Program-made: the position numbers and the translations under genes
Source: Thioalkalivibrio sp. K90mix
Lineage (GTDB): Bacteria > Pseudomonadota > Gammaproteobacteria > Ectothiorhodospirales > Ectothiorhodospiraceae
Length of the DNA stretch: 64,000 nt
Assembly: GCF_000025545.1 (NCBI RefSeq)
Contig: NC_013930.1
Span: 1 to 64,000 of the forward strand
Direction: 5' to 3'
Shown: positions 9,166-63,435 of the stretch, piece after piece
How positions within the stretch are numbered: the stretch's first letter is position 1
Layout: every line of letters begins with the position of its first letter
The notes under the pieces: model-generated
What the model saw: only the letters and a program-made list of their open reading frames with translations
Told to the model about the DNA's origin: nothing
Database searches by the model: none

Positions 9166-9423
9166 ATGGAACAGACCACACCGACACCCCCCGGATCCGA
9201 CGCTGACAGTGCGGATGCTCGACGCGGGCGCTTCCTGGTGGAGAACGGCGCCTGGTTGCGTTTCGGCGTGGATCAGGAATCGGAGGAAGACCGGAGTGCG
9301 GCGCTGGCGGTCCGTGTCCCGTTCAAGACCGATCTCTCGACGGTCGCCACCCGTGAGGACGCGGTGGATGCCGCAATCGAGGCCGCCGAACAAGCGACGA
9401 GCGAGGCGCATGGCAATGGCTGA
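9166..9423 (+). CDS. hypothetical 85-residue acidic protein, duplicated at 18408
   Basis: Family not recognised. Residues 25-85 are nearly identical to the C-terminal half of the product of the gene at 18408, which carries an extra helical segment of about 50 residues near its N-terminus. The start at 9166 follows AAGGAAG. The gene ends overlapping the next one, so the pair is translationally coupled, and the pair is duplicated as a unit. Confidence 0.7.
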   Translation: MEQTTPTPPGSDADSADARRGRFLVENGAWLRFGVDQESEEDRSAALAVRVPFKTDLSTVATREDAVDAAIEAAEQATSEAHGNG

Positions 9424-9590
9424 GACCGGCTACATCGTCCGCGCCTACCGATATCCGGTACTACCCGCGGCGTCCCCCGACTGGGAATCGACCCCTTATG
9501 CGCGGATCGAACCGATCAAGCGCTCGGCTCGGAGTCATTACCTCGCCCACAACGCGCGGTACCGCTACGAGATCCAGGCGGTTGAGGTGG
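9247..9590 (+). repeat. recent direct duplication, copy 1 (other copy 18662-19005)
   Basis: By reading, about 340 bases appear identical to 18662-19005. The block spans the end of one gene and most of the next. Divergence begins abruptly on both sides, which fits a recent duplication or gene conversion. Confidence 0.85.
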
Positions 9591-9703
9591 GAAAGAACGA
9601 CGGAGCGGTACAAGTCCTGTCTCGGGCGCCCCTACTGGAAGCTGCGCCCGAGCCGGGTGCCGCCCGGCTACGCTGGGTGTCCTGCGAGAACGGGGGCGCA
9701 TAG
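9410..9703 (+). CDS. hypothetical 97-residue basic protein, duplicated at 18823
   Basis: Family not recognised. The product is basic and beta-rich (TGYIVRAYRYPVLPA near the start) with no signal or membrane segment. The ATG at 9410 (or 9416) lies within the end of the preceding gene. The copy at 18823 differs mainly after residue 63. Confidence 0.65.
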   Translation: MAMAETGYIVRAYRYPVLPAASPDWESTPYARIEPIKRSARSHYLAHNARYRYEIQAVEVGKNDGAVQVLSRAPLLEAAPEPGAARLRWVSCENGGA

Positions 9704-9993
9704 TGTTCGCCCGCGGCCCAATGCCGGGCGCGACCCCCAAGGCAGACGCCCTGGGAAGGCTTCCTGGGGCTCGGTGCCGCCAGCGCGAGGCGCTCGGGAT
9801 TCGAGGGTATGTGGTCGAACTGCCCGATGGGCGCGCGATCGCCAGCGCCGGAAACGCCGGGAAGGCATGGGAAAAGGCCCTGGAATGGGCGCTAGGACAG
9901 GAACGGGAGCGAAAGGAACATGGAGCGAGTGACGAAAGAACACGTAGAGGAATGGGTGGAGAACCTGGTCCGCGCCAGCCGGCAGGCGGGTGA
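9703..9993 (+). CDS. possible small ORF overlapping its neighbours
   Basis: A GTG start touches the preceding stop codon. The central segment (GYVVELPDGRAIASAG, then a helical AGKAWEKALEWA) looks protein-like, but the last 74 bp overlap the better-supported gene at 9920 and the C-terminus there is low complexity. It may be real only in its first 70 codons, or spurious. Confidence 0.35.
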   Translation: MFARGPMPGATPKADALGRLPGARCRQREALGIRGYVVELPDGRAIASAGNAGKAWEKALEWALGQERERKEHGASDERTRRGMGGEPGPRQPAGG

Positions 9994-13993: not shown

Positions 13994-14060
13994 CACGCTT
14001 CGAGTTGGGGTGAGACACGGGGAATGCCCGTCAGAAACGGCGATCACACGCTCCAAAAAA

Positions 14061-14135
14061 TCGACAAGACCACGCGATTCGCTACGCTGGAGCCTCATTC
14101 AACGGAACCGGCCCGAAGCCGGTAGGAGAATCCCC
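14061..14135 (+). promoter_or_regulatory. TCGACA-family promoter with leader hairpin
   Basis: TCGACA (14061-14066), 16 bases, TACGCT (14083-14088), hairpin CCGGCCCGAAGCCGG, then AGGAG. Nearly identical to 19979-20053, including the upstream bases, so the two are duplicates. Confidence 0.65.
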
Positions 14136-14516
14136 ATGGAAACGATCAATGACATCAGCCCGGCCATCCTCATCGTCGGCAACCCTGTCGATGGTATGAG
14201 TCATATCGGCCCGTTCGCGGATGCCGAGGAGGCCAACGAATACGGCGACGGCCTGGATGAGGACTGGTGGGTGGTCACCCTGGCCGCACCCGAAATCGAG
14301 GATGCCGAGGAAACGGTCCTCACATTCCAGACGCGCCTCACCTCCGAGGATATCCCGGACGACTTCGAGGTGCGGCCGCTGCAACCGGGCGACGAGGCCC
14401 GCGACAAGGTGACCTGCCTGTCCTGCGGCCTGAGTTGGGACAATGCGGTAGCAACCGGAATCACGCCGACCCCGGCGGCGCGCTGCCCGTTCGAGCCGTT
14501 CCATCGGGGCGAATAA
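14136..14516 (+). CDS. hypothetical 126-residue acidic protein with C-terminal CxxC
   Basis: Family not recognised. An acidic, beta-rich N-terminal domain of about 90 residues is followed by C-L-S-C-G...C-P-F-E-P-F-H, possibly a small zinc site. Behind its own promoter and hairpin leader. Confidence 0.7.
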   Translation: METINDISPAILIVGNPVDGMSHIGPFADAEEANEYGDGLDEDWWVVTLAAPEIEDAEETVLTFQTRLTSEDIPDDFEVRPLQPGDEARDKVTCLSCGLSWDNAVATGITPTPAARCPFEPFHRGE

Positions 14517-18407: not shown

Positions 18408-18836
18408 ATGGAACAGACGCCCTCGACCCCACGGCCAAAGGAATCAGGTGTGCGCCTGCACGAGATCCTGATTGAGCTGGCGGAGGTCCTCGGTGCGGAG
18501 GAAGACCCCGAGGCTTATATGTGGGACGTCAGCGACGTGCAGGACTGGTTGCATGAGGTGGCGGATCTGATGGCAGCCCTGCCCTCGGTGTCCGAAGTGG
18601 GTCACGAAGATGCGAATCAGGCGCAGGATGCGCGACGCGGTCGTTTCCTGGTGAAGCACGGCGCCTGGTTGCGTTTCGGCGTGGATCAGGAATCGGAGGA
18701 AGACCGGAGTGCGGCGCTGGCGGTCCGTGTCCCGTTCAAGACCGATCTCTCGACGGTCGCCACCCGTGAGGACGCGGTGGATGCCGCAATCGAGGCCGCC
18801 GAACAAGCGACGAGCGAGGCGCATGGCAATGGCTGA
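18408..18836 (+). CDS. hypothetical 142-residue protein, longer paralog of the product at 9166
   Basis: Family not recognised. The C-terminal 65 residues are almost identical to the product at 9166. About 50 extra helical residues (after residue 15, LHEILIELAEVLGAEEDP and on) separate the common N-terminal M-E-Q-T from the common C-terminus. The start follows AAGGAG. Confidence 0.7.
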   Translation: MEQTPSTPRPKESGVRLHEILIELAEVLGAEEDPEAYMWDVSDVQDWLHEVADLMAALPSVSEVGHEDANQAQDARRGRFLVKHGAWLRFGVDQESEEDRSAALAVRVPFKTDLSTVATREDAVDAAIEAAEQATSEAHGNG

Positions 18837-19005
18837 GACCGGCTACATCGTCCGCGCCTACCGATATCCGGTACTACCCGCGGCGTCCCCCGACTGGGAA
18901 TCGACCCCTTATGCGCGGATCGAACCGATCAAGCGCTCGGCTCGGAGTCATTACCTCGCCCACAACGCGCGGTACCGCTACGAGATCCAGGCGGTTGAGG
19001 TGGGC
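18662..19005 (+). repeat. recent direct duplication, copy 2 (other copy 9247-9590)
   Basis: By reading it appears identical to 9247-9590 over about 340 bases. Part of a larger collinear set of paralogs described among the findings. Confidence 0.85.
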
Positions 19006-19116
19006 AAGAAGGACGGAGCGGTTCAAGTCCTATCCCGGAAGACCCTGCTGGAAGCCACGCCCGAGCCGGGTACCGCCCGGATACGCTGGGTGTCCCGCGA
19101 GAACCGGGGCGAATAG
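18823..19116 (+). CDS. hypothetical 97-residue basic protein, copy of the product at 9410
   Basis: Family not recognised. Identical to the product at 9410 for the first 60 or so residues, then a few substitutions. Overlaps the preceding gene in the same way as its copy. Confidence 0.65.
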   Translation: MAMAETGYIVRAYRYPVLPAASPDWESTPYARIEPIKRSARSHYLAHNARYRYEIQAVEVGKKDGAVQVLSRKTLLEATPEPGTARIRWVSRENRGE

Positions 19117-19150
19117 TGTTCGCTGCGGCCGATGATTGGGGGGCATCGAG

Positions 19151-19978: not shown

Positions 19979-20053
19979 TCGACAAGACCACGCGATTCGC
20001 TACGCTGGAGCCTCAATCAACGGAACCGGCCCGAAGCCGGCCAGGAGAACGTT
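19979..20053 (+). promoter_or_regulatory. TCGACA-family promoter with leader hairpin
   Basis: TCGACA (19979-19984), 16 bases, TACGCT (20001-20006), hairpin CCGGCCCGAAGCCGG, CAGGAG. A duplicate of 14061-14135 now driving a different gene. Confidence 0.65.
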
Positions 20054-20269
20054 ATGTGCGAGAAAGCCCAATCACACTATGAATCCACCCTTGCCGAGAT
20101 GGAGGGCCTCATAGAACGCTTCCGCGGATTGGTCGCGCCAATGCCGCATCACGGAGACAAATGCGAAGACTCGCAGAAGCAGTGTCTCCTTCAGGCACTG
20201 TCGCAACTCGAGCAAACAGTCAACGGCCTCGAGCCGAAAGATTTCGCCAGCACAAGGAGCATACAGTGA
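20054..20269 (+). CDS. hypothetical 71-residue protein
   Basis: Family not recognised. Two predicted helices with four cysteines (Cys2 and C...C around residues 37-44). Its stop codon overlaps the start of the membrane protein at 20269, so the two are coupled. Confidence 0.65.
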   Translation: MCEKAQSHYESTLAEMEGLIERFRGLVAPMPHHGDKCEDSQKQCLLQALSQLEQTVNGLEPKDFASTRSIQ

Positions 20270-24583: not shown

Positions 24584-27500
24584 ATGCATCAGAAGGCCCA
24601 ATCCCCCCAGCTGCTGAAAAAACCGCTCGCGTTGGCGATCGGCGTGGTGCTGGCGAGCGCCTACCTCACCTCTGTATCGGCCGGGGAATCCGGTATCCGG
24701 GTGGTGCTACCCGACACCAGCGACAAGGTGGATACCGCCGGAATGACCCCGACCCCGGGGGATCCGGAGGTCTGGAACTCCTACGCCCACTCCGAAGGCT
24801 TTTCGACGGTCGGCGACTACGCCACGGATGATGTGGCTTTCAATAGTGAATCGGCCACCTGCCTGCCGATGGGTCCGGGCTGCGAAGACTTCAATGACTA
24901 CTTCCCCGAGCCGAACCCCGCGGGTGACCTGCGGTTCAACAGCAACGACCTGGTGAGTACGACCGGGCTGGAGACCATCGAGACGGTGGGGGGTGAACTG
25001 AACCTCAGTTTTAATGATCTGACCGACGTGGATGGGCTTTCGGGGCTGCGTGAAGTGGGCGGGACACTGAACCTGCGGGGCAACGACCTGACCGACCTGC
25101 GGGGACTGGGCAGCCTGCACACGGTGGGCGGTGCGGTCTTCCTGGACCGAAACGACCTCCAGACGCTGGACGGTCTGGAGAACCTGGAGGAGACGGGCAG
25201 CATTTACCTGTACGGGAACGACCTGACGGATATCTCGGCCCTGAGCGGGCTCCGTCGCGCGGGTGGCATCTTCCATCTGTACGACAACCCCCGCCTGGCT
25301 GACCTGTCGCCGCTGTCGAACATCGAAGACGATGTGGCCTTCCAGGGCTCATTCGGCGGTCAGGTCCGCATCGACGCCGGCATCCATGAGCGCGCGGGCT
25401 TCGTGCCGATCCAGGGCGGCGCCCTGTGCCAGGACCACAACGCCGATGCGTTCAACGATAGCTACGCCCAGCAGGCCGAGGTGTGCGCGGATGATACGAT
25501 GGAGGCCTCGGCCACCTGGAACTCCTACGCCCACTCCGAAGGCTTTTCGACGGTCGGCGACTACGCCACGAATGATGTGGCTTTCAATAGTGAATCGGCC
25601 ACCTGCCTGCCGATGGGTCCGGGCTGCGAAGACTTCAATGACCACTTCCCCGAGCCGAACCCCGCGGGTGACCTGCTGTTCAACAGCAACGACCTGGTGA
25701 GCACGGCCGGGTTGGAGACCATCGAGACGGTGGGGGGTGAACTGAACCTCAGTTTTAATGATCTGACCGACGTGGATGGGCTTTCGGGGCTGCGTGAAGT
25801 GGGCGGGACACTGAACCTGCGGGGCAACGACCTGACCGACCTGCGGGGACTGGGCAGCCTGCACACGGTGGGCGGTGCGGTCTTCCTGGACCGAAACGAC
25901 CTCCAGACGCTGGACGGTCTGGAGAACCTGGAGGAGACGGGCAGCATTTACCTGTACGGGAACGACCTGACGGATATCTCGGCCCTGAGCGGGCTCCGTC
26001 GCGCGGGTGGCATCTTCCATCTGTACGACAACCCCCGCCTGGCTGACCTGTCGCCGCTGTCGAACATCGAAGACGATGTGGCCTTCCAGGGCTCATTCGG
26101 CGGTCAGGTCCGCATCGACGCCGGCATCCATGAGCGCGCGGGCTTCGTGCCGATCCAGGGCGGCGCCCTGTGCCAGGACCACAACGCCGATGCGTTCAAC
26201 GATAGCTACGCCCAGCAGGCCGAGGTGTGCGCGGATGATACGATGGAGGCCTCGGCCACCTGGAACTCCTACGCCCACTCCGAAGGCTTTTCGACGGTCG
26301 GCGACTACGCCACGAATGATGTGGCTTTCAATAGTGAATCGGCCACCTGCCTGCCGATGGGTCCGGGCTGCGAAGACTTCAATGACCACTTCCCCGAGCC
26401 GAACCCCGCGGGTGACCTGCTGTTCAACAGCAACGACCTGGTGAGCACGGCCGGGTTGGAGACCATCGAGACGGTGGGGGGTGAACTGAACCTCAGTTTT
26501 AATGATCTGACCGACGTGGATGGGCTTTCGGGGCTGCGTGAAGTGGGCGGGACACTGAACCTGCGGGGCAACGACCTGACCGACCTGCGGGGACTGGGCA
26601 GCCTGCACACGGTGGGCGGTGCGGTCTTCCTGGACCGAAACGACCTCCAGACGCTGGACGGTCTGGAGAACCTGGAGGAGACGGGCAGCATTTACCTGTA
26701 CGGGAACGACCTGACGGATATCTCGGCCCTGAGCGGGCTCCGTCGCGCGGGTGGCATCTTCCATCTGTACGACAACCCCCGCCTGGCTGACCTGTCGCCG
26801 CTGTCGAACATCGAAGACGATGTGGCCTTCCAGGGCTCATTCGGCGGTCAGGTCCGCATCGACGCCGGCATCCATGAGCGCGCGGGCTTCGTGCCGATCC
26901 AGGGCGGCGCCCTGTGCCAGGACCACAACGCCGATGCGTTCAACGATAGCTACGCCCAGCAGGCCGAGGTGTGCGCGGATGATACGATGGAGGCCTCGGC
27001 CACCTGGAACTCCTACGCCCACTCCGAAGGCTTTTCGACGGTCGGCGACTACGCCACGAATGATGTGGCTTTCAATAGTGAATCGGCCACCTGCCTGCCG
27101 ATGGGTCCGGGCTGCGAAGACTTCAATGACCACTTCCCCGAGCCGAACCCCGCGGGTGACCTGCTGTTCAACAGCAACGACCTGGTGAGCACGGCCGGGT
27201 TGGAGACCATCGAGACGGTGGGGGGTGAACTGAACCTCAGTTTTAATGATCTGACCGACGTGGATGGGCTTTCGGGGCTGCGTGAAGTGGGCGGGACACT
27301 GAACCTGCGGGGCAACGACCTGACCGACCTGCGGGGACTGGGCAGCCTGCACACGGTGGGCGGTGCGGTCTTCCTGGACCGAAACGACCTCCAGACGCTG
27401 GACGGCCTGGAGAACCTGGAGGCGACGGGCAGAATTTACCTGTACGGGAACGACCTGACGGATATTTCGGCCCTGAGCGGGCTGCGTCGCACTGGCAACC

Positions 27501-28480
27501 GCTTCCATCTGTACGACAACCCCCGCCTGGCCGATCTGTCGCCGCTGTCGAACATCGAAGACGATGTGGTCTTCCAGAGCTCATTCGGCGGTCGGGTCCG
27601 CATCGACGCCGGAATCCATGAGCGCGCGGGCTTCGTGCCGATCCAGGGCGGCGCCCTGTGCCAGGACCACAACGCCGATGCGTTCAACGATAGCTACGCC
27701 CAGCAGGCCGAGGTGTGCGCGGATGATACGATGGAGGCCTCGGCCACCTGGAACTCCTACGCCCACTCCGAAGGCTTTTCGACGGTCGGCGACTACGCCA
27801 CGAATGATGTGGCTTTCAATAGTGAATCGGCCACCTGCCTGCCGATGGGTCCGGGCTGCGAAGACTTCAATGACCACTTCCCCGAGCCGAACCCCGCGGG
27901 TGACCTGCTGTTCAACAGCAACGACCTGGTGAGCACGGCCGGGTTGGAGACCATCGAGACGGTGGGGGGTGAACTGAACCTCAGTTTTAATGATCTGACC
28001 GACGTGGATGGGCTTTCGGGGCTGCGTGAAGTGGGCGGGACACTGAACCTGCGGGGCAACGACCTGACCGACCTGCGGGGACTGGGCAGCCTGCACACGG
28101 TGGGCGGTGCGGTCTTCCTGGACCGAAACGACCTCCAGACGCTGGACGGCCTGGAGAACCTGGAGGCGACGGGCAGAATTTACCTGTACGGGAACGACCT
28201 GACGGATATTTCGGCCCTGAGCGGGCTGCGTCGCACTGGCAACCGCTTCCATCTGTACGACAACCCCCGCCTGGCCGATCTGTCGCCGCTGTCGAACATC
28301 GAAGACGATGTGGTCTTCCAGAGCTCATTCGGCGGTCGGGTCCGCATCGACGCCGGAATCCATGAGCGCGCGGGCTTCGTGCCGATCCAGGGCGGCGCCC
28401 TGTGCCAGGACCACAACGCCGATGCGTTCAACGATGACTACGCCCAGCAGGCCGAGGTATGCGAGAGCGTTGAGGGGTAG
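24584..28480 (+). CDS. 1298-residue secreted protein with five 248-residue leucine-rich repeat blocks
   Basis: A signal peptide (residues 1-38, ending S-V-S-A-G-E) precedes the shared motif I-R-V-V-L-P-D-T. The rest is five tandem blocks of 248 residues. Each has a Cys pair (C-L-P-M-G-P-G-C), six leucine-rich repeats of about 20 residues (L-N-L-S-F-N-D-L, L-N-L-R-G-N-D-L, V-F-L-D-R-N-D-L, I-Y-L-Y-G-N-D-L types) resembling receptor-L/LRR surface domains, and a second Cys pair (A-L-C-Q-D-H...E-V-C). It is probably exported and exposed; ligand unknown. AAGGAG precedes the ATG. Confidence 0.85.
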   Translation: MHQKAQSPQLLKKPLALAIGVVLASAYLTSVSAGESGIRVVLPDTSDKVDTAGMTPTPGDPEVWNSYAHSEGFSTVGDYATDDVAFNSESATCLPMGPGCEDFNDYFPEPNPAGDLRFNSNDLVSTTGLETIETVGGELNLSFNDLTDVDGLSGLREVGGTLNLRGNDLTDLRGLGSLHTVGGAVFLDRNDLQTLDGLENLEETGSIYLYGNDLTDISALSGLRRAGGIFHLYDNPRLADLSPLSNIEDDVAFQGSFGGQVRIDAGIHERAGFVPIQGGALCQDHNADAFNDSYAQQAEVCADDTMEASATWNSYAHSEGFSTVGDYATNDVAFNSESATCLPMGPGCEDFNDHFPEPNPAGDLLFNSNDLVSTAGLETIETVGGELNLSFNDLTDVDGLSGLREVGGTLNLRGNDLTDLRGLGSLHTVGGAVFLDRNDLQTLDGLENLEETGSIYLYGNDLTDISALSGLRRAGGIFHLYDNPRLADLSPLSNIEDDVAFQGSFGGQVRIDAGIHERAGFVPIQGGALCQDHNADAFNDSYAQQAEVCADDTMEASATWNSYAHSEGFSTVGDYATNDVAFNSESATCLPMGPGCEDFNDHFPEPNPAGDLLFNSNDLVSTAGLETIETVGGELNLSFNDLTDVDGLSGLREVGGTLNLRGNDLTDLRGLGSLHTVGGAVFLDRNDLQTLDGLENLEETGSIYLYGNDLTDISALSGLRRAGGIFHLYDNPRLADLSPLSNIEDDVAFQGSFGGQVRIDAGIHERAGFVPIQGGALCQDHNADAFNDSYAQQAEVCADDTMEASATWNSYAHSEGFSTVGDYATNDVAFNSESATCLPMGPGCEDFNDHFPEPNPAGDLLFNSNDLVSTAGLETIETVGGELNLSFNDLTDVDGLSGLREVGGTLNLRGNDLTDLRGLGSLHTVGGAVFLDRNDLQTLDGLENLEATGRIYLYGNDLTDISALSGLRRTGNRFHLYDNPRLADLSPLSNIEDDVVFQSSFGGRVRIDAGIHERAGFVPIQGGALCQDHNADAFNDSYAQQAEVCADDTMEASATWNSYAHSEGFSTVGDYATNDVAFNSESATCLPMGPGCEDFNDHFPEPNPAGDLLFNSNDLVSTAGLETIETVGGELNLSFNDLTDVDGLSGLREVGGTLNLRGNDLTDLRGLGSLHTVGGAVFLDRNDLQTLDGLENLEATGRIYLYGNDLTDISALSGLRRTGNRFHLYDNPRLADLSPLSNIEDDVVFQSSFGGRVRIDAGIHERAGFVPIQGGALCQDHNADAFNDDYAQQAEVCESVEG
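24773..28480 (+). repeat. five 744-bp tandem repeats inside the LRR gene
   Basis: Units start at about 24773, 25517, 26261, 27005 and 27749. Units 2 and 3 look identical; units 4 and 5 share variants in their second half (for example A-T-G-R-I for E-T-G-S-I). The pattern implies recent unequal exchange. Confidence 0.9.
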
Positions 28481-39389: not shown

Positions 39390-39724
39390 TCGACAAGCCG
39401 AAACGTTCTGGCAATCTGGACCCATCGAAACCAACACCGGTCGCCTGTGGCGGCTGAGGCGAAACACCGGCGGCCCCGGCCAACTGGAACAGGGGTGGGA
39501 TTTGCAGGCGAGTGCCCGAGGGATATGGCCCCGAAAACCCCTGCACCAAGGACTGCCGCCGGGCCATCGCGCCCATCTCCTCGGCAGGGCCAAGGGGAAA
39601 CGCCACCTCACGGCGCCGCGCGTTGCAGGTGACAACGCACAATGCAGCGGTTGCTCATGGACATCAGCGACCCCGTACCGACGCCGGCACCGATCAGGAC
39701 GATCAGGCCGGCGTTTTTTATGGG
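39390..39724 (+). ncRNA. 291-bp transcription unit copy A (candidate small RNA), inverted copy at 56535
   Basis: TCGACA (39390-39395), 16 bases and CAATCT (39412-39417) precede a 291-base block (39434-39724) that ends in a terminator: ACGCCGGC/GCCGGCGT stem with TTTTTT (39690-39719). The block reappears inverted at 56535-56825 with, by reading, one mismatch. Each copy has its own promoter outside the identical block. Frames inside are short or run through the terminator, so a small RNA is favoured over a protein, but a 35-codon frame (39522) exists. Confidence 0.55.
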
Positions 39725-54524: not shown

Positions 54525-54640
54525 GTTGACTGCTCTCCGCCCTAAAGGACGGAGATTCCCAATTCATCGAGAACTGCCCATGCCACAATCACGGCGCAGG
54601 ACTGACATTCTCTCCAAGGGCGCGCACCGCCAGCCCGGCG
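54525..54640 (-). ncRNA. predicted omega RNA region at the tnpB 3' end
   Basis: In characterised elements the guide (omega) RNA overlaps the tnpB 3' end and the right-end hairpin. That hairpin is present here, and the sequence beyond 54525 would act as guide. Position inferred, not measured. Confidence 0.4.
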
Positions 54641-55710
54641 GCTTTGATGTTGACCGCGGCGTTCACGTCGCGGTCGTGTTCGGTGCAGCATTCGGGGCAG
54701 GTCCAGGTGCGAACGGACAACGGCAGTGCGTCGACCACATGGCCGCAGTGCGAACACCGTTTGCTCGACGGGTACCACGGGTCGATGGCGACCAGTTGCC
54801 GCCCGGCCCATTCGGCTTTGTACGCCAGTTGCCGGACAAACTCGCCCCAGCCCGCATCACTGATGGCTTTTGCCAGATGCGGGTTGCGCAGCATGTTCTT
54901 CACCTTCAGGGATTCGACGCAGATCACTTGGTTCTCGTTGACGATCTGGCGGGACTGCTTGTGCAAGCGGTCCATCCGGCAATCGGCGATTTTGGCGTGA
55001 AGTCGCGCCACCTTCTGTCGGGCCTTGGCACGGTTCTTCGAGCCGAGTTTCTTGCGGCTCAGTCGTCGTTGCGCCAAGGCCAGTCGGGCGGCGTATTTTG
55101 CCGTATGGCGGGGATTGCCGGTTCGATGCCCGTCGCTGGTGACGAACATGTCCTTCAGTCCGAGATCGATACCCACCATCTTCGGGGTGACGGGCCGCTT
55201 CTCGGGGTTGAACTCGCACAGGCAGCTCACGAAGTAGCGGCCGGCCGAGTCCATGGAGATGTTGATACTGGTGGGTTCGGAGGGAAGCGTCCGACTCCAC
55301 CGGATGTTCAAGGGCTCCCGGCACTTGGCCAGGAACAGTTGCCCTTCCCGGTACTGGAACGCCGAACGGGTGAACTCCGCCGACTGGCGGGCACGTTTCT
55401 TCTTGAAGTTCGGGTACCGGGCGCGGCCCGCGAAGAAATTCTTGAACGCGGTCTGCTGATGGCGAAGACACTGCTGAAGCGGCACCGAGCTGACCTCGTT
55501 GAGGAAGGCCGTTTCCTCGGCCTTTTTCATCGCGGTCAGGTAGGCGCTGGCCTCGGTATAGGCGATCTTCTCCTGGCGCTCAAAGAACGCATCCGTGCGG
55601 TAGCGCAGCACGGTGTTGTACACCAGGCGCACGCAACCGAACGTCCGCGCCAGAAGCACTTCCTGCTCCGGCGTCGGATAGAAACGGTATTTGTAGGCGC
55701 GCTTCACCAT
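54589..55710 (-). CDS. tnpB: TnpB RNA-guided nuclease of IS605-type element
   Basis: The 373-residue protein has the N-terminal Y-K-Y-R-F-Y-P-T-P-E-Q, the RuvC motifs G-I-D-L-G-L-K-D (first Asp), C-V-E-S-L-K-V-K-N-M (Glu) and D-R-D-V-N-A-A-V-N-I (last Asp), and a C-x-x-C...C-x-x-C zinc finger between the last two. All catalytic residues are present, so it is probably active as a reRNA-guided DNA endonuclease. Confidence 0.92.
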   Translation of the reverse strand: MVKRAYKYRFYPTPEQEVLLARTFGCVRLVYNTVLRYRTDAFFERQEKIAYTEASAYLTAMKKAEETAFLNEVSSVPLQQCLRHQQTAFKNFFAGRARYPNFKKKRARQSAEFTRSAFQYREGQLFLAKCREPLNIRWSRTLPSEPTSINISMDSAGRYFVSCLCEFNPEKRPVTPKMVGIDLGLKDMFVTSDGHRTGNPRHTAKYAARLALAQRRLSRKKLGSKNRAKARQKVARLHAKIADCRMDRLHKQSRQIVNENQVICVESLKVKNMLRNPHLAKAISDAGWGEFVRQLAYKAEWAGRQLVAIDPWYPSSKRCSHCGHVVDALPLSVRTWTCPECCTEHDRDVNAAVNIKAAGLAVRALGENVSPAP

Positions 55711-56534: not shown

Positions 56535-56866
56535 CCCATAAAAAACGCCGGCCTGATCGTCCTGATCGGTGCCGGCGTCGGTACGGGGTCGCTGATGTCC
56601 ATGAGCAACCGCTGCATTGTGCGTTGTCACCTGCAACGCGCGGCGCCGTGAGGTGGCGTTTCCCCTTGGCCCTGCCGAGGAGATGGGCGCGATGGCCCGG
56701 CGGCAGTCCTTGGTGCAGGGGTTTTCGGGGCCATATCCCTCGGGCACTCGCCTGCCAATCCCACCCCTGTTCCAGTTGGCCGGGGCCGCCGGTGTTTCGC
56801 CTCAGCCGCCACAGGCGACCGGTGTGTTGTAAGGCCCCAGGTTGATCGATGCCGTGCGGCTGTCGA
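56535..56866 (-). ncRNA. 291-bp transcription unit copy B (candidate small RNA)
   Basis: Inverted copy of 39434-39724: TCGACA (56866-56861), 16 bases, CAACCT, then the 291-base block down to the terminator at 56568-56538. By reading one substitution separates the copies. Sequence outside the block, including the promoter spacer, is different, so selection or conversion acts on the transcribed part. Confidence 0.55.
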
Positions 56867-57180
56867 TTTTTTCGCTCCTTCGCACCTGGGGTTGAACCGC
56901 GTCCCTGCGATCCGTGCATCCGTGCCGGGCTCCTGCCCTAGTCTCCCTTGCCTCGTCCTGGGCCTGCGCTCCCTGCGCGCTTTTCCTGTTTTGGCGCTGG
57001 ATCCTTCCAGCTGCTCATCCCGGCTGTTCCGTTCCTGAGATGACTCCAGATTGCCCGAAGAAAACCGGTTGTCGATTTCTTGAAGGACGACCGCGAAAAA
57101 ACCGGAAATCCGAGCCGTCGACTTTTTGAAGAACGCGTGGCAGGGTCTAAAGAGCGAGTTGCAAAAGGACAAGGAACGTT
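56867..57180. other. intergenic region with further promoter-like sites
   Basis: Minus strand: TCGACA at 57075-57070 with CAATCT after 16 bases. A 26-codon frame follows (start about 57017). Plus strand: GTCGATTTCTTGAAGGACG (57071) and GTCGACTTTTTGAAGAACG (57117) are two similar boxes; TTGAAG with TAAAGA after 16 bases could drive the gene at 57181. No solid gene seen. Confidence 0.45.
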
Positions 57181-60899: not shown

Positions 60900-60975
60900 C
60901 TATTCGGGTGTCTTCTGCCCCTGCACATAAGCCTTGAGCGTCTCGATGGTGGCTCCGCCTGTCACACACAGCACG
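60900..60975 (-). pseudogene. tnpA (IS200-type Y1 transposase) 3' remnant
   Basis: Reads V-L-C-V-T-G-G-A-T-I-E-T-L-K-A-Y-V-Q-G-Q-K-T-P-E and a stop codon, the C-terminal helix of IS200/IS605 TnpA. The catalytic Tyr and HUH are gone. Confidence 0.75.
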
Positions 60976-61100
60976 ACCGGGACATCAATGCGGCACTGAA
61001 CATCAAGCACCAGGGCTTGATCCATTTGAAGGCGGAAGGGCTGTCCGTCTCTGCCCATGGAGGCTCGCGTAAATCCGGCATGTCGCCGGTTGCTGCCTAA
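60972..61100 (+). pseudogene. tnpB 3' remnant
   Basis: Reads H-D-R-D-I-N-A-A-L-N-I-K-H-Q-G-L and continues to a stop codon at 61098-61100. D-R-D-I-N-A-A is the last RuvC motif of TnpB. It differs from the tnpB at 54589, so it came from another element. Confidence 0.8.
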
Positions 61101-61134
61101 GAAGTGGGAAGCCTCGCCCGTGGCGCGTCAGCGC

Positions 61135-63435
61135 TTAGGGCGGGGAGCAGTCACTATCTCGGGGTCCGTCCGACACCCGGTACGACTCCAGAAGCAAGCG
61201 AACGGGGGTATAGAGCGGCTCGATGACGGCGCGCGGGTCCAGTACCCACAAGTGCCGATCCGTATCCTGTTCTGAACGGACCATGCGCCCGATCCCCTGC
61301 GCGGTCTGCCAGTAGGTCTCGGCCGCCTTGGACTCGAAGTTCGCCCGCCCCCGGTTGCGCGCCGCCTGGGAAATGGAGCGGTTGAGCCCCACCGGCAAAC
61401 GGGCGATGACCAGATCCGACACCTGACTCAAACCCTCCGACGTCAGGTTGATCCCGGTCCATGCGGCACCGGTGGCGAGCCACACCGGACGCTCCCCGTT
61501 TCGGCTCGACGCGACGAAGGCCTCGCGAAGGGCGGACAGCCGCGCGCCGGGGCCCTGGGCGATCAGACGCTCGCCCAGCGTATCGGCCAGACGTTCGGAC
61601 AGGCCCTCGATGTCCCGGTAGGCCGTCAGCAGGACCAATGTCCCCTGCTCCGCCCCCTCCGTGATCCGCGCAAGATCCCGTGCCGTATCGTCCAGCCATT
61701 GCTGAACCAGTGCGGCGTAGATTGCCGGGTCAGTTTCCGACGTGCTGGGCGGTCGACGCTCGGGGTTGCGCTCGATATGGGCGATCACATTGCCCCGCAC
61801 CCAGTCCGGGCGTACGGGCTTGAGGGTACGCAGACGCTCGCGCGGGAGCGCCAAAACCTGAGTGAGATGACGCGCCGAATACCAGCCCTGCGTATCCGAT
61901 ACGTCGGCTCGCCGCGAATCCCGTGTCGGGACATAAAGCGTGGCCGACATCAGCACCGCCGCGTCGACCTGCGACCACATGCGCTCGAACAGGCGCCGCA
62001 GCCCCTGACCACCCACCGCCAGCGACAGGTAGCCGCGCACCGGTGATGAGGACAGTTGCAGCAGGGCCCGTTCGCGCTGGGACGCCCGGAGAATCGAGCG
62101 TGTCCGCTTCAGCAGCGCGAGAAGGCCGGGATCGGCCGTGTGCTGGCGGGCCCTTTCCGCGCGCCCGATGAGGGCGTCAACGGCCTGGTGCAGCCGACCC
62201 GCCTGAACCTGAACCGCCGCATAGCGATCATCGCCCGGAAACAGCAGGATCTCCCCGCCCCGCTCGGGGAACCGGTTGTGCAAATCCTTCAGGACCTCTT
62301 CGACCGCCTCGAGGTCCCGCTTACCCGTCTTCAGCAACAACGCCGCGGGCAGTGAGCGCAAAAGGCGCGGGAGCTGATCCAGCGAGGCCGTCGGGGACAG
62401 GACGGCGTTGGCGTTTTCCTCGAACTGGTGGGCCTCGTCAAGCACAAGGACCTCGTGAGGCGGCAACAGGTAGCGCTCGAGGCCGATCATTCGGGCGTGG
62501 AGCGCGTACATCGCGTGCGTGCAGAACACGATCGGCGCATCCCCTTCCAGATCCCGTGCCGCCATTGCCGCCCGAATCCCCGGATCGGTTTCGCTTTCTG
62601 CGTCGCCTCCGATCTCCTCCGCCGACAGCTCCAATTCCTCCACCCCGTACCCATCCGGCAGCAGCGTGGCGAGATCATCGGTCAGGTGGGAGACCGGTTG
62701 TCCTTCAACCGACGCGAAGGCTGCGGTCGAGTCGGTTCGCCCCGCCGGCGCACCTGCATCCAGCCATTGCAGCAGGGCTGAACCCGAGGCCTGGGTCTCC
62801 GGGTCGGAACCCGACTGCATCAAGGAGGCGAGCTGGCGGGCGCGGCCGGCATGGAAGAATTGTGCCGCGCCGAGAAAGAACTGCATGGGTCGATTCAGCC
62901 CTGGGCAGGATCCGAACTCCCGCGCCAGTGCCGCCAGCACGCCCAGCGTGGGCCCGCACACCACCACCCGCTCGCGCCCGGCGGCCAGGGCATCCTCCAC
63001 CGCTTGTGCCACCGCGCGGCCCTTGCCGGTACCGGTGGCTGCCTCCGCCAGCAAGATCGCATTGGCCGCCAACCCCTCGGCCAGCGGAGCATAGAAACGT
63101 CCCTGCTCCGGGCGCATCCAGTCCGGGCCTTCCGCCCTCCGATCCGCGGCCTCTGTTCGCTTCGAACGTGGTTCCCCACCCGGCTGATTCAGGTGGCCGT
63201 GCAGGAGTTCGCTCAGTACCTCGGACCACGGCTCATCCCCCTGGCGCAGACCGGACAGCACGGCGAGATCCCGTGCCCCGAGATTGATGGAAATCGAGTC
63301 AAGGCCCACAGCCGGCAACCGCCGGCGGCGGGCGGTATGCGCCGCGGCGTGAAGGCGCTCCCGAAAGAAGCGGCTCTGCCCGGTGGCGGGGATGTCGGTG
63401 AGGCGTTCGGGGCTGTACTTGAGTCGAATCTGCAT
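61135..63435 (-). CDS. DinG-family helicase, probable type IV-A CRISPR CasDinG (Csf4)
   Basis: The 766-residue XPD/DinG-like helicase has Walker A A-T-G-T-G-K-G (133-139), L-V-L-D-E-A-H, L-M-S-A-T-L, T-G-A-A-W-T-G-I-N and Q-G-I-G-R-M-V-R-S. The four iron-sulfur cysteines of ordinary DinG are missing between motifs I and II, as reported for CRISPR-associated DinG. It is divergent from a Cas6-like gene. The last codons (S-D-C-S-P-P and stop) are read from the right end of the deleted IS605 element, so the native C-terminus may be altered. Start ATG 63435 follows AGGATGCAAGG. Confidence 0.75.
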   Translation of the reverse strand: MQIRLKYSPERLTDIPATGQSRFFRERLHAAAHTARRRRLPAVGLDSISINLGARDLAVLSGLRQGDEPWSEVLSELLHGHLNQPGGEPRSKRTEAADRRAEGPDWMRPEQGRFYAPLAEGLAANAILLAEAATGTGKGRAVAQAVEDALAAGRERVVVCGPTLGVLAALAREFGSCPGLNRPMQFFLGAAQFFHAGRARQLASLMQSGSDPETQASGSALLQWLDAGAPAGRTDSTAAFASVEGQPVSHLTDDLATLLPDGYGVEELELSAEEIGGDAESETDPGIRAAMAARDLEGDAPIVFCTHAMYALHARMIGLERYLLPPHEVLVLDEAHQFEENANAVLSPTASLDQLPRLLRSLPAALLLKTGKRDLEAVEEVLKDLHNRFPERGGEILLFPGDDRYAAVQVQAGRLHQAVDALIGRAERARQHTADPGLLALLKRTRSILRASQRERALLQLSSSPVRGYLSLAVGGQGLRRLFERMWSQVDAAVLMSATLYVPTRDSRRADVSDTQGWYSARHLTQVLALPRERLRTLKPVRPDWVRGNVIAHIERNPERRPPSTSETDPAIYAALVQQWLDDTARDLARITEGAEQGTLVLLTAYRDIEGLSERLADTLGERLIAQGPGARLSALREAFVASSRNGERPVWLATGAAWTGINLTSEGLSQVSDLVIARLPVGLNRSISQAARNRGRANFESKAAETYWQTAQGIGRMVRSEQDTDRHLWVLDPRAVIEPLYTPVRLLLESYRVSDGPRDSDCSPP

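Follow-up and report, generated by a model that had tools for sequence, protein, structure and literature searches.

What does a plasmid encode in a 291-bp block of DNA that it carries twice, in opposite orientations and nearly without change, and why are both copies kept? The stretch analysed here, called the window, comprises bases 1-64000 of the 240,256-bp plasmid contig of Thioalkalivibrio sp. K90mix, a soda-lake sulfur bacterium with a genome of 2,985,056 bp. The published genome has the same length, and its 240-kb plasmid was reported to be linear (PMC3368412). The most economical reading of the pair is that the block specifies an sRNA that is stable, structured and fed by two promoters and that in one of the two loci also forms the 3' end of a putative CsrA sponge. 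We assign a probability of about 0.6 to this reading, that is, to a pair of non-coding sibling sRNAs on the plasmid, with copy 2 serving in addition as the 3' end of a CsrA-sponge-like leader RNA.

The duplicated block and its plasmid promoters

Copy 1 of the block lies at 39434-39724 on the plus strand and copy 2 at 56825-56535 on the minus strand, and the two share 290 of their 291 bases (BLAST E 6.6e-149, so the likeness is not due to chance), with a sole mismatch at 39503, T in copy 1 and G in copy 2, as a preliminary description of this DNA had claimed in reporting an inverted pair one base apart. They form the only long inverted pair of the window, with 291-nt arms and 16,810 nt between them, and they are the only two copies in the whole genome. 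Both are found in intergenic gaps, of 904 and 466 bp, which are the third and fifth longest of the window, where the median is 99 bp. The copies either arose by recent duplication or stay alike through recombination, one differing base being unable to tell gene conversion from recent duplication.

Each copy has a promoter of its own, and these are indeed separate and non-identical, as described before: TCGACA-N16-CAATCT at 39390..39417 (+) for copy 1, with the TCGACA box at 39390-39395, and TCGACA-N16-CAACCT at 56839..56866 (-) for copy 2, with the box at 56866-56861. Further out, at 57048..57075 (-), the copy 2 unit has an outer promoter, again TCGACA-N16-CAATCT. A position weight matrix built from 27 sites of the plasmid, none of them at the RNA loci (consensus AAAAAATCGACAGA...TTCGATA..CTGG), ranked these three promoters 27, 39 and 41 among 480,434 positions of the plasmid (scores 30.9, 22.1 and 20.2, respectively), and its maximum in the chromosome was about 15.0 in the 2.4 Mb scanned by script, which represent 87% of that replicon. 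The strict form of the class, AAAATCGACA-N16-YANNCTGG, has 27 sites on the plasmid and none in the same 2.4 Mb of chromosome, and a related strict pattern, searched for genome-wide, gave 17 matches, all of them on the plasmid, and none with the reversed control. Despite this plasmid-only class of promoters, no protein with a sigma-70 region 2 was found on the plasmid. Written as AAAATCGACA-N16-TANNCTGG, the class has at least 27 plasmid sites, for instance at 14058, 14586, 19976, 29895, 39387 (+) and 56869 (-). Several plasmid genes also have in common a conserved 5' UTR in which the hairpin CCGGCCCGAAGCCGG stands immediately 5' of the ribosome-binding site, examples being 14061-14141, 19979-20059 and 94134 (-).

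Counted from the -10 boxes, the predicted transcript starts fall near 39424 for copy 1 and 56832 for the short RNA of copy 2. At the other end both copies close with the same intrinsic terminator, as had been proposed, consisting of ACGCCGGC...GCCGGCGT and then T6, at 39681..39719 (+) and 56540..56578 (-), with the inner hairpin GATC[AGGAC]GATC; the hairpin is present in the MFE structure of copy 1. This terminator is absent from the list of a simple terminator scanner, probably because its stem is interrupted, and it was read directly from the sequence instead. Apart from the promoter boxes, the sequence before the block diverges abruptly between the copies, as does everything after it, and thus the earlier statement that conservation is limited to the transcribed part stands as far as the flanks are concerned, but not to the exact base, given that the identical part sets in about 7-10 nt into the predicted transcript instead of at +1. 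In the sibling-sRNA reading, copy 1 would produce one structured RNA of about 300 nt, running from the plasmid-class promoter to the intrinsic terminator, and the inner promoter of copy 2 would produce the same RNA, with dosage and two promoter contexts feeding a single RNA species that may act in trans.

The rival explanation that survives best, which we nevertheless consider improbable, is a passive recent duplication, where a small recombination event copied 291 bp behind another promoter and the resulting RNA has no function. The single differing base is compatible with recent copying, and the plasmid contains other short duplications of high identity (60952-61154 = 97064-97266, 98%, and 9213-9718 = 18626-19130, 95%), but the ends of the block nearly match the predicted transcript ends, and independent promoters of the same class are present at both sites, neither of which is expected from the copying of a random segment.

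The GGA leader of copy 2 and the candidate Csr/Rsm parts of the plasmid

Between the outer promoter (57075) and copy 2 there is a leader of about 180 nt (56870..57047, minus strand), unmentioned, like the outer promoter itself, in the preliminary description, which contains 15 GGA and six A(R)GGA hairpin loops. No other stretch on this strand of the plasmid equals its GGA density, 15 in 170 nt versus a mean of 3.0, and its GGA hairpins, which include gctggaAGGAtccagc, gcgcAGGGAgcgc, gggcAGGAgccc and atcgcAGGGACgcggt, number 7 versus the 1.2 expected from dinucleotide shuffles (p 0.0005, which is the limit of 2,000 shuffles). A looser count of any GGA loop with arms of at least 3 pairs is not decisive alone, since chromosomal coding stretches equal the leader in this density. 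When exclusively A(R)GGA loops are counted, six are reached by just two 200-nt segments in 2.64 Mb, both strands included, namely the leader and plasmid 161351-161550. These counts place the leader among the top two CsrA-sponge-like stretches of the scanned sequence. A chromosomal segment at 476452 with five GGA hairpins was set aside, as it looks coding and resembles dnaK by eye. The leader had no match to the Csr/Rsm families of Rfam up to E 5, and the block itself is not a sponge by its GGA count (7 GGA versus 6.4 expected, and one GGA hairpin).

The terminator scan found no terminator between the leader and copy 2, and therefore the outer promoter should yield, by read-through, an RNA of about 520 nt, in which the block would be the 3' domain and would provide the terminator of the GGA-hairpin leader. 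The leader part of this longer RNA, built like a CsrA/RsmA sponge, would work by titrating CsrA. Additionally to the chromosomal CsrA, the plasmid has a divergent CsrA homologue of its own at 200117-200275 (-), with 51.9 bits and an intact reading frame. A second candidate sponge, CsrB-like in its layout, is located at plasmid 161351-161790 (+), with about 20 GGA motifs, many of them in hairpin loops, and its own intrinsic terminator. This second RNA was unrecognised by Rfam and had no homologue in 29 congeners, and a 40-nt match in one congener was discarded, being no more than the terminator that follows a tRNA-like gene. It is conceivable, though we offer it tentatively and would not expect it to hold in full, that a self-contained Csr/Rsm circuit exists on the plasmid, made up of the divergent CsrA, the CsrB-like sponge at 161351-161790, and a further sponge with the duplicated stand-alone sRNA, transcribed from the plasmid-only promoter class, as its 3' half, which together would tune plasmid and host translation. 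Among the titles and abstracts covered by a limited literature search, we found no description of a plasmid that has a CsrA homologue together with sponge RNAs.

A narrower alternative, still within the sRNA reading, takes the block as an sRNA that represses mRNAs by base pairing in trans and is unrelated to CsrA, the leader being a separate RNA that merely lies upstream. The leader is absent at copy 1, and the free-standing promoter, the terminator and the open loops resemble those of base-pairing sRNAs; nonetheless, a duplex screen against 92 translation-start regions in the window found no pairing that stood out from that of shuffled RNA (best z -2.8), and we rate this alternative as unlikely too. 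A 21-nt similarity at plasmid 148199-148219 was rejected as a target, given its sense orientation inside a likely reading frame.

Coding potential, fold and relatives of the block

The codon scores of the block are negative in all six frames, from -0.13 to -0.38 per codon, compared with a mean of +0.20 and a 5th percentile of +0.09 for the predicted plasmid genes, in agreement with the former remark that no frame is convincing. The very small protein that had been left as an alternative thus finds no support in any frame. The candidate is a 35-codon ORF starting at ATGGCCCCGAAAACC, with a GAGGGAT stretch just 5' of its ATG, and we regard a small-protein gene of this kind as very improbable considering those scores and the longer open frames, which run through the terminator and have ends that differ between the copies. 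The predicted fold is compact, with open loops and three 3' hairpins, the last of which is the terminator (MFE -134.9 kcal/mol, with a modest z of -2.0 versus shuffles). As a prediction, the small RNA first proposed for this block is well supported by the plasmid-class promoters, the terminator, the negative codon scores, the long intergenic gaps and the lack of transposon ends.

The Rfam covariance-model search gave no match for the block, nor for the region around copy 2 up to E 5, and no relative of the block was found in 29 congeners, in the order (47 genomes) or in a 369-genome sample of the class. The search of other replicons suggested at the outset gave no further copy in the genome and no relative in plasmids, phages or IMG/VR (two 23-24-mer scans), and when the plasmid and 2.4 Mb of chromosome were searched by nhmmer with its filters off, no convincing diverged copy was detected. 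The weak homology matches span 25-42 nt, mostly at the terminator end, and the single match to a GTDB contig in a 21-mer scan, one exact 21-mer in a Phycisphaerae MAG, was taken as chance. As for the neighbours, the genus has no relative of the 131-aa protein upstream of copy 1; for the 100-aa protein on the downstream side of copy 2, there are relatives of about 49% in two congeners, with no block at those loci, and scans of viral contigs with flanking proteins (n=2) found nothing.

As improbable as the small-protein gene is a DNA-level element, either inverted repeats serving a 16.8-kb inversion or a mobile element. The inverted pair has a length sufficient for RecA-dependent recombination, and the 16.8 kb between the copies could in principle invert, but this is unsupported, the single assembly shows one orientation only, and the block has no terminal inverted repeats, target duplications, internal transposase or further copies. 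A symmetric placement of the copies around the replication terminus was also considered and dropped, the GC-skew maximum being a broad plateau at about 48-68 kb.

Known systems and other features of the plasmid

Sibling sRNAs, near-identical RNA genes in more than one genomic copy, are a known arrangement (PMC4211561), as seen with csrB, which is duplicated in Vibrio tasmaniensis (PMC6262261), and with the multicopy sRNA LhrC (PMC4132741). The block would be of this known kind, being a highly similar RNA gene in two copies, each with its own promoter and terminator as judged from the DNA, and it differs in being an orphan on a plasmid, with copies 99.7% identical, one of them behind a sponge-like leader; the RNA sequence matches nothing known in our searches. 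With CsrB, RsmY and RsmZ it is the leader of copy 2, and not the block, that shares the repeated A(R)GGA hairpin loops, the intergenic location and a CsrA homologue, here on the same plasmid, whereas the leader lacks an Rfam match and a terminator of its own and is predicted to run into another RNA. Plasmid-borne CsrA homologues redirect host behaviour, and one of them, the CsrA/RsmA homologue RsmQ, binds hairpins in RsmY and RsmZ, two RNAs of the host (PMC9928087). The K90mix plasmid likewise carries a CsrA-family gene, but unlike the case of RsmQ it also has two sponge-like RNA stretches itself. With a plasmid that brings sponge RNAs beside CsrA, the control of translation by plasmids could be tested directly, and an orphan RNA in two near-identical copies behind different plasmid promoters offers a clean case for testing why sibling sRNAs are retained in bacteria.

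Some other features were observed along the plasmid. A TnpB-family gene (OrfB_IS605, with a Cas12f1-like TNB domain) is located at 54589-55710 (-), about 0.8 kb downstream of copy 2, and no link between this gene and the block was found. The 203-bp pair at 60952-61154 and 97064-97266 (98%) reads like a tnpB 3' end plus downstream end sequence, with the 61-kb copy being apparently a fragment. At 24584-28480 there is an ORF of 1298 aa with a signal-peptide-like start and five tandem 744-bp repeats at 98% identity. Finally, the contig end (236911-240256) repeats the contig start (1-2093) exactly, as 1-1450 and 1448-2093, split by an insert of 1250 bp that has two transposase-like ORFs, IS3-like by eye, and a 3-bp duplication. 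This repeat is either a circular overlap left untrimmed, although a linear form was published for the plasmid (PMC3368412), or a terminal repeat that differs by an insertion.
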